A DNA stretch of 32,816 nt from an uncultured Bacilli bacterium (GTDB taxonomy: Bacteria > Bacillota_I > Bacilli_A > RF39 > UBA660): NCBI GenBank assembly GCA_947623665.1, contig CANQHJ010000012.1, positions 1 through 32,816 on the forward strand, in the 5' to 3' direction. Shown here piece after piece: positions 7,767 through 15,911 of this stretch. Within the stretch, counting starts at the first letter, position 1. Every line of letters begins with the position of its first letter. The notes below the pieces were generated by a model. It was not told where the DNA came from. It saw only the letters and a list, made by a program, of their open reading frames with translations, and did not search any database. The translations under genes were made by a program, and so were the position numbers.

Positions 7767-9842
7767 TTAGTATCTTTCCTTTATAATATTTTTACTACAA
7801 TAATAAGTTATTAAGAAATATCCTCCATAAATAAAGATTAAGAAAATAGCTGTTGCAATAATTGAAGGAAGTAATTCTTCATTACCAAACACCTCTAAAA
7901 TATTCATAGCAAACATTATTCCAAATACAGAATGAATCAAAGCAAGTATCAAAGGTAGAATAAAAAATATTGCAATTTCTCTAAACAAAGCTTTATTAAG
8001 TAATATCTCATCTGTTCCAATTTTTCGTAAAATCATAAATCTTTCTTTATTATCACTAGCCTCAGATAACTCTTTTAAAGCAAGTATTGCTGCACTACTA
8101 ATTAAAAATATAATTCCCAAATAAAGACCAATAAATGTTACCATTGTAGATAGTCCAACTGTTGCCTCTTTAATTGCAAGTTTAGTAGATCCACTAGGAA
8201 GTAAATAATCATTTGCCAAAGAAGAATTTCCTAATGCATTAATACTATCTTCTATTTTTGTTATTTTTTCTTTATCAGTTGTTATATAATTACCTATTAA
8301 ATAGTTTTCATATAAATATTCTTCATCTACAATTTTATCTGGAACTAAAATAAGACCTGTATTAATATGTTGACTAGACATCTCTAAAAATCCATCTTGA
8401 CAAGTATCATATTTAGGTTTTAAAGTATGTTCAAATAAATTAATTTCTTCCCTATTTTTAAGAGAAATATCTCTTATTTTAACCATTGATTCAAAATCAG
8501 CAATAATCATATATTGATTATCTTTTAAAGAATATTCCTTTATCCCATAAAATCTAGCCACTTTATTATAATCACTAATTTTCATAATTGTCTCCATACT
8601 GTCATATTCTAAAAATGGAAACTTTAATTTTATATCATCTGATTTTGAACCTAAAGTATGCATTAATGTTAAGTCAGGTGTTGCATAAGTATTTACTTCA
8701 ATATAATCTTTAAAATAAGATGTAATATCAAAATTAAATATTTTAAACATTTCCATAGCAGTATAATGAGAATTTTTTATTTGTAAATCATTATATCCAT
8801 ACTTTCTAAAGTCATCATAATATTTATCCATATTCATATTTTGTGAAAACATTGCATCCACAGGTGCTAATTTTTTAATATTTTCATTCATAGAATTTTT
8901 CATAGTAAGACAAGCTGATAATAAACATATTGTTATAAATAACATCAAGCAAATAATAGTTGTTGAAAATACAGTTGTATTAATTTTACTACTAAATTCT
9001 CTTAGTATAAAACTATTTAATCCTTTATAATAATATCTCTCTAAACTTTGAACAATTCTTAAAATCAGTCCCGATAAAGACCAAAATATAAAAAATGTTG
9101 ATACTACACCCATTATAATAGGAATTATTATATCTTTTATTTCTTGTAATCTAAGAAAATCATTAGTAACTATATAATATGCCCTTTCTAGAACTAAACA
9201 AGAAATAATAAAAATAATAATACATAAATAAGGATTTTTTAATTTAATTTTCTCAGTATTTTTTGAACCATTTAATAATTCAATTAACCTACATTTACTA
9301 ACACTTATAGTATTAAATATCATCACAAGTAAATACATAATCCCAAAATAAATTACAGTTTTAAGACAAGCAGATGATGAAAATACAAATTCAAACTTTG
9401 AAAGATTTACCTCAAACATATTAGCAACTAACAAACTCATAAATTGAGATAAAACAACTCCAAAAGCAAGTCCTACAATTAAAGATAAAACTCCAATAAA
9501 AAGTGTTTCAAAAAATAAAATTAATGATATTTTTCTTTTACTCATTCCAAGAGTTAAATATATACCAAATTCCTTATTTCTTCTTTTCATCAAAAATCTT
9601 GAAGCATAAATTATTAAAAAACCTAATATAAATGAAACAAATACACTAACACCTGATAAAAAAGTCATCATAAGTTCAATTAATTCTTGAGTTGATGATG
9701 ATACATTCATCATAACAGTTTGACTATCAAGAGCATTAAAAACATAAAAGATTGCTACACCAAGAATAAGTGTAAAAAAATAGATGGTATAATCTTTAAT
9801 ACTTTTCTTGATGTTTTTTAAAGATAACTTACAAAGCATCAT
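7767..9842 (-). CDS. BceB-type ABC transporter permease (FtsX-like)
   Basis: 691 aa, FtsX-type segments (RRNKEFGIYLTLGMSKRKISLILFFETL), large extracytoplasmic domain, adjacent to a BceA-type ATPase. Confidence 0.92.
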   Translation of the reverse strand: MMLCKLSLKNIKKSIKDYTIYFFTLILGVAIFYVFNALDSQTVMMNVSSSTQELIELMMTFLSGVSVFVSFILGFLIIYASRFLMKRRNKEFGIYLTLGMSKRKISLILFFETLFIGVLSLIVGLAFGVVLSQFMSLLVANMFEVNLSKFEFVFSSSACLKTVIYFGIMYLLVMIFNTISVSKCRLIELLNGSKNTEKIKLKNPYLCIIIFIISCLVLERAYYIVTNDFLRLQEIKDIIIPIIMGVVSTFFIFWSLSGLILRIVQSLERYYYKGLNSFILREFSSKINTTVFSTTIICLMLFITICLLSACLTMKNSMNENIKKLAPVDAMFSQNMNMDKYYDDFRKYGYNDLQIKNSHYTAMEMFKIFNFDITSYFKDYIEVNTYATPDLTLMHTLGSKSDDIKLKFPFLEYDSMETIMKISDYNKVARFYGIKEYSLKDNQYMIIADFESMVKIRDISLKNREEINLFEHTLKPKYDTCQDGFLEMSSQHINTGLILVPDKIVDEEYLYENYLIGNYITTDKEKITKIEDSINALGNSSLANDYLLPSGSTKLAIKEATVGLSTMVTFIGLYLGIIFLISSAAILALKELSEASDNKERFMILRKIGTDEILLNKALFREIAIFFILPLILALIHSVFGIMFAMNILEVFGNEELLPSIIATAIFLIFIYGGYFLITYYCSKNIIKERY

Positions 9843-12822: not shown

Positions 12823-12833
12823 AATATCTCCCT

Positions 12834-13829
12834 TTATTTATTCTTCAAAATATAATTATAAGAATCTTTACACATATCTTCTATTGTTTTAGTAACCTTA
12901 AAACCTAATAATTTTTCTGCCTTAGAAGAATCTGCATAATATTCTGCAATATCCCCACTTCTTCTTTTTCCTATCTTATAATTTATTTTAATACCATTAA
13001 CACTCTCAAATGTATTTACAATATCTAAAACACTATATCCAACACCTGTACCCAAATTAAAGTAATCTATTCCCTTATTAGTTAAATAATCAATTGCCTT
13101 AATATGTCCTTTTGCTAAATCTACAACATGAATATAATCTCTTACTCCAGTTCCATCCTTAGTATCATAATCATTTCCAAAGACAGTTAAACATTCCAAT
13201 TCACCTATTGCAACTTTCAAAATATAAGGCATCAAATTATTAGGAATACCTTGAGGATTTTCTCCAATCAAACCACTTTCATGAGCACCTATAGGATTAA
13301 AATATCTAAGTACAACTATACTCCAATCATTATTAGATACATATAAGTCTTTTAATATTCTTTCTATCATTAATTTTGTACTACTATATGGATTAGTTGT
13401 ACCTTTAGGAAAATCTTCCTTTAACGGTAATTCATCATTAACATCATAAACAGTTGCAGTTGAAGAAAAAATCAATTTATGACAATTATACTTATCCATT
13501 ACTTTACAAAGACTAATAGTTGTATCTATATTATTTTCATAATACATAAGTGGATTATCAACACTTTCACCAATTGCTTTAAATCCAGCAAAATGAATAA
13601 CTGCATCTATATTTTCTTTTTCAAATACTAAAGATAACATCTCTTCATCCTTAACATTACCCTTATAAAAAGAAAAACTTTTATTAGTAATCTTTTTAAT
13701 ATTATCTAATACTTCTTTTTTAGAATTAGAAAAATCATCAACTATTACTACCTCATAATTATTCTCTAAAAGTTCTACTACTGTATGACTTCCAATAAAG
13801 CCAGTACCACCTGTTACTAAAATTTTCAT
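12834..13829 (-). CDS. galE: UDP-glucose 4-epimerase
   Basis: Rossmann GGTGFIGSH, AVIHFAGFKAIGESV, NPYSSTK and LRYFNPIGAH motifs. Confidence 0.95.
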   Translation of the reverse strand: MKILVTGGTGFIGSHTVVELLENNYEVVIVDDFSNSKKEVLDNIKKITNKSFSFYKGNVKDEEMLSLVFEKENIDAVIHFAGFKAIGESVDNPLMYYENNIDTTISLCKVMDKYNCHKLIFSSTATVYDVNDELPLKEDFPKGTTNPYSSTKLMIERILKDLYVSNNDWSIVVLRYFNPIGAHESGLIGENPQGIPNNLMPYILKVAIGELECLTVFGNDYDTKDGTGVRDYIHVVDLAKGHIKAIDYLTNKGIDYFNLGTGVGYSVLDIVNTFESVNGIKINYKIGKRRSGDIAEYYADSSKAEKLLGFKVTKTIEDMCKDSYNYILKNK

Positions 13830-13897
13830 ATATTACCTCACTAATTACACTTTACCATATAAAAGAATAAATTGAAAGAATAATTTAATAATAACAT

Positions 13898-14860
13898 CTA
13901 TATTTCAAAAATCGTTAATTGACCATCTCTTTGAAATTTCATTTCTCTATTTACATAAAAATTATTATTTTTTATAATCTCTCTTTCAAAATCAGACATA
14001 TTTGAAGTTATTTTATGTTTCGGAAAAAAACTCATACTATACGTGTTATAATACCTACCATTAACATTTTTAGATTCTCCTATTAATCTCTTTGTAATAG
14101 GAAATAATTTTTTAGAAATTTCAACCTTATTCTTATTCCTAGATGAATTATGCAATATATTAAAATTAGCTCCCAAAAACAAATCAACCAATTGAAGTAA
14201 AACATTTTCGTCATTCAAACAATTATCATTATTAGTTTCTATAAAATTTATTTCTAAACATTTGCATACTATTTTTTTCTCATTAAGATTAATATATCTT
14301 AAAGGTTGTGTTTTAAAATATTCATGATAATTCATATTACCAGTATCATGATAAACAGCATCAATTATTATCTTATCATAATCACTAAAAAACTTTTTTA
14401 GTGCAAAAATAACTGTAGTTCTAAAAAATCTATTATATATATTTTCATTAACATGAGTCTTTTCACCTTTATTTTTAAAATAACTTTTATCCAGTTTATT
14501 TTTATTTATACCTAATATATTCATATAAAAGCGAGCATTTTTACTTTGATTAGCTAAGATAACATCACACCATCTTTCTGCAATTCTAAAATTATTAGTA
14601 TTATCATATTCTTGATAATGAATCTTTACTTTATTTTTTTCATGATAACAACATTTATTTTCACAAGTAGTATATTTATGACCAGCACCACATCTCAAAT
14701 CATTTAACTCTTTTACAAGTGAAGAAATATTTTTTGTTGGAACTATACATATTCCTATATAATCCCAATTTTCTTTTTCACCATATAAGCCATTATCTAA
14801 CTTTTCATTTTTTATCTCATCACAAAAAATAGAAACATTAATAGTTTTCATATACATCAT
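13898..14860 (-). CDS. DUF3800-like protein (putative RNase H-fold nuclease) with a Cys/His-rich insertion
   Basis: N-terminal SIFCDE, central KIIIDAVYHD and late LLQLVDLFLGA resemble DUF3800 acidic motifs; insertion RCGAGHKYTTCENKCCYH. Confidence 0.65.
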   Translation of the reverse strand: MMYMKTINVSIFCDEIKNEKLDNGLYGEKENWDYIGICIVPTKNISSLVKELNDLRCGAGHKYTTCENKCCYHEKNKVKIHYQEYDNTNNFRIAERWCDVILANQSKNARFYMNILGINKNKLDKSYFKNKGEKTHVNENIYNRFFRTTVIFALKKFFSDYDKIIIDAVYHDTGNMNYHEYFKTQPLRYINLNEKKIVCKCLEINFIETNNDNCLNDENVLLQLVDLFLGANFNILHNSSRNKNKVEISKKLFPITKRLIGESKNVNGRYYNTYSMSFFPKHKITSNMSDFEREIIKNNNFYVNREMKFQRDGQLTIFEI

Positions 14861-14873
14861 CTCTCTTTAAATT

Positions 14874-14882
14874 ATTATAACA
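14874..14882 (-). promoter_or_regulatory. Extended -10 promoter (TGTTATAAT) for the DUF3800-like gene
   Basis: TATGTGTTATAAT identical to the one upstream of the ATPase gene. Confidence 0.65.
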
Positions 14883-14903
14883 CATAAAAACAAACTCCTA
14901 TAT

Positions 14904-14939
14904 TAAAAAAAGAACTATCTATATAAAGATAATCCTCTT
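14904..14939 (-). terminator. Terminator after the tRNA-Cys fragment
   Basis: AAGAGGATTATC…GATAGTTCTTTTTTT; counterpart of the terminator after the intact tRNA-Cys. Confidence 0.65.
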
Positions 14940-14950
14940 ATCACTTAATA

Positions 14951-15004
14951 GAGGGCCTAGTCGGATTTGAACCAACGATCAGAAAATTGCAGTCCCTTAC
15001 CTTA
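14951..15004 (-). pseudogene. tRNA-Cys(GCA) 3' fragment (anticodon arm, T arm, 3' acceptor strand; lacks 5' acceptor and D arm)
   Basis: 50/54 identity to 15839-15892; CCA is changed to CTA; ATPase stop codon lies 1 nt upstream. Confidence 0.9.
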
Positions 15005-15005
15005 C

Positions 15006-15746
15006 TTAATCATCAAACATCCTATGTTGCATATCTTCAGAATTATCTAAATACATTTTATATAATGAATATATTTCTGTTTCTTTATACTCTACTTCTT
15101 TAAAATTATTATCTAAATCTAAAATTACCCCATCACGATAACTAATTAAAATTGGAGAATGAGTTGCAATTATAAATTGACTCCCCTCTTTTACTAATTG
15201 ATCTATTAAACAAAGTAATGATAATTGTCTTTGAGGAGAAAGTGCTGCTTCAGGTTCATCTAAAATATATAATCCATGGTCAGTAAATCTATTTTGAACT
15301 AATTTTATAAAAGATTCTCCATGAGAACACTCATGTAAATTTCCACCATATGAATCATATAGTGTATTAAAATTATCTTCCTCAACTAATCTTTGCACTT
15401 CACTAGAAAAATTATAAAAACTTTCAGCACGTAAAAAAAATTTCATTTCAGGTTTATTAAAAGTAGCAACTCTTAAATAATCAGCCAAATTAGAAGTTGT
15501 ATTATTTGTATCATATCTAAAATTTTCAGTTCCACCTTCTGCAGGTAATCCTAAACACACAGCAAGTGCTTCAATAAAAGTAGACTTTCCAATGCCGTTT
15601 TCTCCAACAAAAAAAGTAACTTGAGATTTAAAATCTAACTCACGGAAGTTTTTTACAATCTCTATATTAAAAGGATAACTATCAAAGTTTTTTATTTTAT
15701 CTCTTTCTAAAATAAGTTTTTTAACAATTAATTTACTATTCATCAC
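15006..15746 (-). CDS. Stand-alone AAA/ABC-type ATPase (COG3910-like)
   Basis: Walker A VGENGIGKST, signature CSHGESF, Walker B LYILDEPEAALSP, H-loop ATHSP. Confidence 0.93.
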   Translation of the reverse strand: MMNSKLIVKKLILERDKIKNFDSYPFNIEIVKNFRELDFKSQVTFFVGENGIGKSTFIEALAVCLGLPAEGGTENFRYDTNNTTSNLADYLRVATFNKPEMKFFLRAESFYNFSSEVQRLVEEDNFNTLYDSYGGNLHECSHGESFIKLVQNRFTDHGLYILDEPEAALSPQRQLSLLCLIDQLVKEGSQFIIATHSPILISYRDGVILDLDNNFKEVEYKETEIYSLYKMYLDNSEDMQHRMFDD

Positions 15747-15764
15747 AAGCTCCTATACAACTCT

Positions 15765-15773
15765 ATTATAACA
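15765..15773 (-). promoter_or_regulatory. Extended -10 promoter (TGTTATAAT) for the ATPase gene
   Basis: TATGTGTTATAAT, same as 14874-14882. Confidence 0.65.
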
Positions 15774-15792
15774 CATAAGAGAATATTATATC

Positions 15793-15825
15793 AAAAAAAG
15801 AACTACCACAATAACAGTAATTCTT
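15793..15825 (-). terminator. tRNA-Cys terminator
   Basis: AAGAATTACTGTTATTGTGGTAGTTCTTTTTTT hairpin with T run. Confidence 0.7.
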
Positions 15826-15836
15826 TTATTTTAAAA

Positions 15837-15911
15837 TGGAGGGCCTAGTCGGATTTGAACCAACGATCAGGGAGTTGCAGTCCCTTGCCTTAGCCACTTG
15901 GCTATAGACCC
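15837..15911 (-). tRNA. tRNA-Cys (anticodon GCA), CCA encoded
   Basis: GGGTCTA…TAGGCCC acceptor pairs, GCCA/GGC D arm, AGGGA-CTGCAAC-TCCCT anticodon arm, GTTGG-TTCAAAT-CCGAC T arm, U73, CCA. Confidence 0.96.

Follow-up and report, generated by a model that had tools for sequence, protein, structure and literature searches.

How did an ATPase gene come to lie between the only full-length tRNA-Cys gene of a bacterial genome and a partial copy of that same tRNA gene? The locus is part of contig C12, of which the whole stretch of 32,816 nt was analysed (the window); the contig belongs to a 1.40-Mb assembly of 82 contigs with a GC content of 25%. The original prediction for this locus was a minimal or decayed integrated element of 0.89 kb, either mobilised in trans or frozen, with the ATPase as sole cargo. 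Our analysis leads to a related but different answer: we give a probability of roughly 60% to the remnant of an old insertion or accretion, now frozen, that occupies a tRNA-Cys hot spot and has a cargo of more than a single gene. For comparison, 193 genomes of the family were used, including the genome studied here. They are mostly metagenome-assembled genomes (MAGs) with one genome per species, and two others belong to the same genus: G001, an 85%-complete MAG, and G002. In the window, the order of transcription is LysM, tRNA-Cys, ATPase, tRNA fragment, an orphan gene of 320 aa, galE and gene124.

The tRNA-Cys fragment and the ATPase gene

Three features make up the core of the locus:

15837-15911, minus strand: intact tRNA-Cys (anticodon GCA), putative attachment gene (ARAGORN and Rfam RF00005, 62.2 bits)
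15006-15746, minus strand: stand-alone AAA/ABC-type ATPase gene, 246 aa (Pfam AAA_15/AAA_21/AAA_23)
14951-15004, minus strand: decayed 3' fragment of tRNA-Cys (tRNA positions 20-73), candidate distal att remnant (50/54 identity)

According to ARAGORN and Rfam, tRNA-Cys(GCA) is the one tRNA in the window. The predicted partial copy, matching it at 50/54 positions in the same orientation, was confirmed with BLASTN (same strand, genome-wide E 5.7e-17), and the predicted gap of 1 nt between the ATPase stop and the fragment is likewise correct. This match is not a chance event and is unique in the genome. Our survey covered the stretches around the tRNAs and around the matches, and none of the other tRNAs recovered from the genome had a 3' fragment nearby; the sole other internal tRNA match was between tRNA-Asn and the adjoining tRNA-Ile.

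With respect to ATPase transcription, the intact tRNA-Cys is located upstream and the fragment downstream, both in the same orientation, which is the layout of a tRNA-targeted integrative element with a 3' tRNA duplicate at its far end. The fragment differs from the tRNA at four sites, each a change from C to T, suggesting drift as expected in a genome with 25% GC, and it has lost the CCA end. It begins in the D-arm region, unlike the shorter pieces of 44 nt and 16 nt found in relatives (see below).

Homologues of the ATPase with 59-76% identity are present in G036, G005, G014 and G026; they have other surroundings and none is located near an intact tRNA-Cys. Partial matches of the protein to the ATPase subunits found in defence systems such as AriA, PtuA and GajA are numerous, but all of them involve the common ATPase core only, and no partner genes of such systems were identified beside it. 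The ATPase may conceivably act in defence.

A repeat that includes a terminator and a promoter

The tRNA match is real, but the duplicated block is longer than had been predicted, since the homology continues past the tRNA. Two further features are involved:

15764-15838, minus strand: terminator hairpin and extended -10 promoter between tRNA-Cys and ATPase (hairpin -11.1 kcal/mol, z -2.9), homologous to 14873-14950
14873-14950, minus strand: the corresponding terminator hairpin (-13.7 kcal/mol, z -3.65) and extended -10 promoter, duplicated upstream of the orphan gene

The direct repeat (14873-15004 against 15764-15892) comprises 132 bp with 79% identity and contains the 3' part of the tRNA, the terminator hairpin and the extended -10 promoter (E 1.9e-27 in the window, 8.9e-26 in the genome). 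That the ATPase gene lies between the two copies of this block is a direct observation. About 80 bp of the homology are located past the tRNA, and the duplicated core is thus more than an attachment sequence. Taken alone, the terminator/promoter part still reaches a global score of 66 against a shuffle maximum of 40, and an E value of 7e-7 against all fetched loci. Each copy of this part contains TGTGTTATAAT, which occurs twice in the window where 0.11 occurrences are expected by chance. Both hairpins precede T-runs and are significant by folding, whereas a scan with a terminator consensus found no terminator. The promoter ahead of the ATPase (TTGATA-18-TATAAT) agrees with the consensus at 11/12 positions and has the TG extension. 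With the repeat shared, the ATPase and the orphan gene each sit behind the same module of tRNA end, terminator and promoter.

The extent of the repeat is difficult to explain with one simple integration and is the main support for a segmental duplication. In such an event, the 3' part of tRNA-Cys together with the terminator and the promoter, originally leading into the orphan gene, would have been duplicated in tandem, and the ATPase reading frame would have been captured between the copies. Illegitimate recombination, by template switching or with an incoming fragment, would suffice and no site-specific recombinase would be required. The homology of all three parts as a single block speaks for this route. 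Furthermore, the homologues of the ATPase have different upstream regions; therefore the terminator and promoter belong to the tRNA side, and the idea that they travelled with the ATPase was discarded. We consider a segmental duplication a real but clearly less probable alternative, due to the evidence from the family described below. The terminator behind the tRNA-Cys of G001 was considered as an orthologue of either copy and was rejected, since it scores no higher than other tRNA-Cys flanks.

The locus in the same genus

Comparison with G001 defines the variable segment and its two additional genes:

12823-15836, minus strand: whole variable segment in comparison with G001:C6 (L058), about 3 kb (synteny comparison)
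13898-14860, minus strand: orphan gene, 320 aa, found in 1 of the 193 family genomes
12834-13829, minus strand: galE-like epimerase gene, within the segment missing from the syntenic relative (Pfam)

In G001, both flanks are collinear with the window over many kilobases, and the ATPase, the tRNA fragment, the orphan gene and galE are directly seen to be missing between them. The variable segment is thus about 3 kb long and contains more than the ATPase. Together with the repeat, which takes in the terminator and promoter that precede the orphan gene, this contradicts the idea of a 0.89-kb element with the ATPase as sole cargo. The proposed comparison of the locus in related genomes therefore revealed a congener without the segment, but its site is not a clean empty one: after LysM, the tRNA-Cys of G001 is located in the opposite orientation (L058 9608-9682), followed by gene124, and as a consequence the site of insertion cannot be located with single-base precision. 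In G002, which has no gene124, the contig stops just after LysM. This contig (G002:C25, L092) ends about 120 nt past LysM in palindromic sequence, which we take to be reminiscent of an IS200/IS605-type end.

It might also be that the ATPase, orphan and galE genes are ancestral and were deleted when the tRNA-Cys of G001 was inverted. The orientation of the tRNA relative to LysM in the window is the commoner arrangement in the family, and that of G001 is thus probably derived. However, the orphan gene is absent from the remaining 192 family genomes, galE has no match in G001 or G002 at E<=1e-40, the ATPase homologues sit elsewhere, and a deletion leaves the duplication unexplained; a loss in G001 is therefore the least probable explanation and very unlikely. 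Both in the window and in many family genomes, the block g17869-g16500-LysM is followed by tRNA-Cys in the same direction; in some genomes it is reversed on the other side, showing that tRNA-Cys has been flipped more than once. The orientation of tRNA-Cys against its conserved LysM-side neighbours changes repeatedly between the genera of the family.

The orphan protein has no match in Pfam, PHROG, PADLOC, NCBIfam, phage, plasmid or IMG/VR data. Motifs resembling DUF3800 are weak at most when judged by eye, and an assignment to DUF3800 was rejected because no profile matched. An AlphaFold model from the single sequence was unusable (pLDDT 35).

tRNA-Cys as an integration site in the family

The region downstream (3') of tRNA-Cys differs between genera. 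Among the 59 loci with enough downstream sequence for assessment, seven have a large serine recombinase that starts 0.5-1.5 kb downstream of tRNA-Cys. All seven proteins contain Resolvase and Recombinase domains, and six of them form one clade with 47-81% identity. In the three serine-recombinase elements tested, the neighbouring downstream ORF encodes a Mob_Pre relaxase (3/3). This linkage of recombinases to tRNA-Cys is observed directly. In L113, L116, L120, L141, L149 and L150, tRNA-Cys is followed first by a hairpin and then by a ~91-aa ORF, the large serine recombinase and, in the tested cases, the Mob_Pre relaxase. The ~91-aa ORF, which had no Pfam or PHROG match in the one case tested, could encode a directionality factor, given its position beside the recombinase. 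Two element heads are arranged in tandem behind one tRNA-Cys in both L116 and L150.

A second type of enzyme was found in G005, where a tyrosine integrase adjoins a 44-nt tRNA-Cys fragment, followed by tRNA-Gly and a head similar to those of the serine elements. In this genome (L059 8893-11737), the intact tRNA-Cys and the fragment have opposite orientations, which plain integration does not generate; an inversion is likely.

The serine-recombinase and tyrosine-integrase loci support the use of tRNA-Cys as an integration site in the family, and the two short tRNA-Cys 3' ends of G148 (described in the last section) point the same way. They establish that the site is used, not the origin of the copy in the window. 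Nevertheless, with a segmental duplication both the linkage of recombinases to tRNA-Cys across the family and the 3'-fragment geometry of the window become coincidence. We therefore favour an old insertion or accretion remnant. According to this proposal, the ATPase would have entered at tRNA-Cys either by tRNA-targeted integration or by accretion beside an older insertion of a related kind. Integration would leave the complete tRNA-Cys on one side of the insert and a copy of its 3' part on the opposite side, and the recombination genes might have been supplied in trans or lost since. The terminator and promoter ahead of the orphan gene would represent the head of the earlier, related insertion, and from the common heads we infer two related insertions in tandem. 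The remnant would now be fixed, with the fragment drifting and decaying. Points against this reading are the extension of the repeat into terminator and promoter, the start of the fragment in the D-arm region, the lack of a recombinase at the locus, the lack of a third fragment past the orphan gene or galE (12823-14873 searched), and the sole syntenic relative being an 85%-complete genome with an inverted tRNA-Cys.

Recombinases and mobility

Among the ORFs at 12823-15911, no site-specific recombinase was found; the ATPase and galE have assigned domains and the orphan has none. The serine recombinase and the Mob_Pre relaxase present behind tRNA-Cys in relatives are thus missing from the window locus. 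An active single-gene cassette, in which a recombinase from elsewhere would mobilise a minimal element carrying the ATPase, would fit the geometry, and further serine and tyrosine recombinases are encoded in the genome. However, over the aligned parts the recovered enzymes share no more than about 28% identity with those associated with tRNA-Cys, except for one segment of 106 aa with 37%; as the assembly is 91% complete, the lack of a matching recombinase is no proof of absence. In addition, no second copy of the ATPase cassette or module was seen in the genome, the fragment is decayed and has no CCA, and viral contigs contain no match to the exact 26-nt end of tRNA-Cys or to the ATPase. An active or trans-mobilised cassette is thus improbable. 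The distance between the genome's own recombinases and the tRNA-Cys types leaves present mobility unsupported, and of the two predicted states, mobilised in trans or frozen, the frozen one fits better; the segment is probably no longer mobile.

Comparison with known tRNA-associated islands

In Dehalococcoides, many ssrA islands are found within 100 kb, in tandem behind the single-copy tmRNA gene and each bounded by a 20-bp direct repeat of its 3' end; an integration module with a serine recombinase as integrase is present in 16/31 (PMC3146451). The window locus resembles these islands in the geometry of the 3'-end repeat, and about half of the islands likewise have no integration module, but it differs in having one decayed tRNA fragment of 54 nt and homology that extends into terminator and promoter. 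In the additive island fGI-2 of 'Ca. Methylopumilus', islands of between 1 and 63 genes follow repeats that correspond to the final 20 nt of tRNA-Lys; these repeats vary in number and are found in many strains (PMC10872708), whereas the window provides one fragment in one MAG. In an accretion array, each of several units would end with one and the same 3' repeat, and in the window there is one such fragment. In common with the serine-recombinase elements of the family (L113/L116/L120/L141/L149/L150), the window has a hairpin and then coding genes directly behind tRNA-Cys; in contrast to them, it has no ~91-aa ORF, serine recombinase or relaxase, and the sequence of its head is unlike theirs. 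With moderate confidence, this comparison would place the locus with the known old insertions at tRNA hot spots and not with active cassettes.

Thus, tRNA-Cys is documented as a recurrent landing site in a family of uncultured Bacilli with small genomes, and in several genera mobilisable serine-recombinase elements are associated with it. The locus also cautions against taking every single gene flanked by tRNA sequences for an active cassette: its repeated block exceeds the attachment sequence, and its variable segment contains more than one gene. It is conceivable, though highly speculative, that units of tRNA 3' end, terminator and promoter are exchangeable heads, and that single genes without a recombinase, when inserted behind tRNA-Cys, gain a ready terminator and promoter, which would make the site an expression-ready place for gene capture.

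Further tRNA-Cys copies in the family

The 17-nt end of tRNA-Cys was considered as a genome-wide repeat, but nearly all 193 genomes contain at most one copy; two genomes in which it occurs twice, as well as contigs ending at tRNA-Cys, were kept out of the evidence due to possible branching of the assembly graph. In G164, an extra copy of tRNA-Cys (L067 88-146) has lost its 3' end after about position 60, and an intact tRNA-Cys is also present. G148 has two 16-nt tRNA-Cys 3' ends downstream of its tRNA-Cys, at +807 and +2001, each followed by a hairpin-like repeat (by eye) and a T-run. At 8568-8640 on the minus strand of L096 in G148, promoter-like sequence is followed by a stretch of 43 nt, the ends of which (GGGCCTA and TAGGCCC) can pair as in a tRNA acceptor stem; the stretch terminates in the exact tRNA-Cys 3' end, followed by a hairpin with a T-run. 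This stretch may encode a tRNA-like transcript of miniature size, or it may be what an internal deletion left of a tRNA copy.
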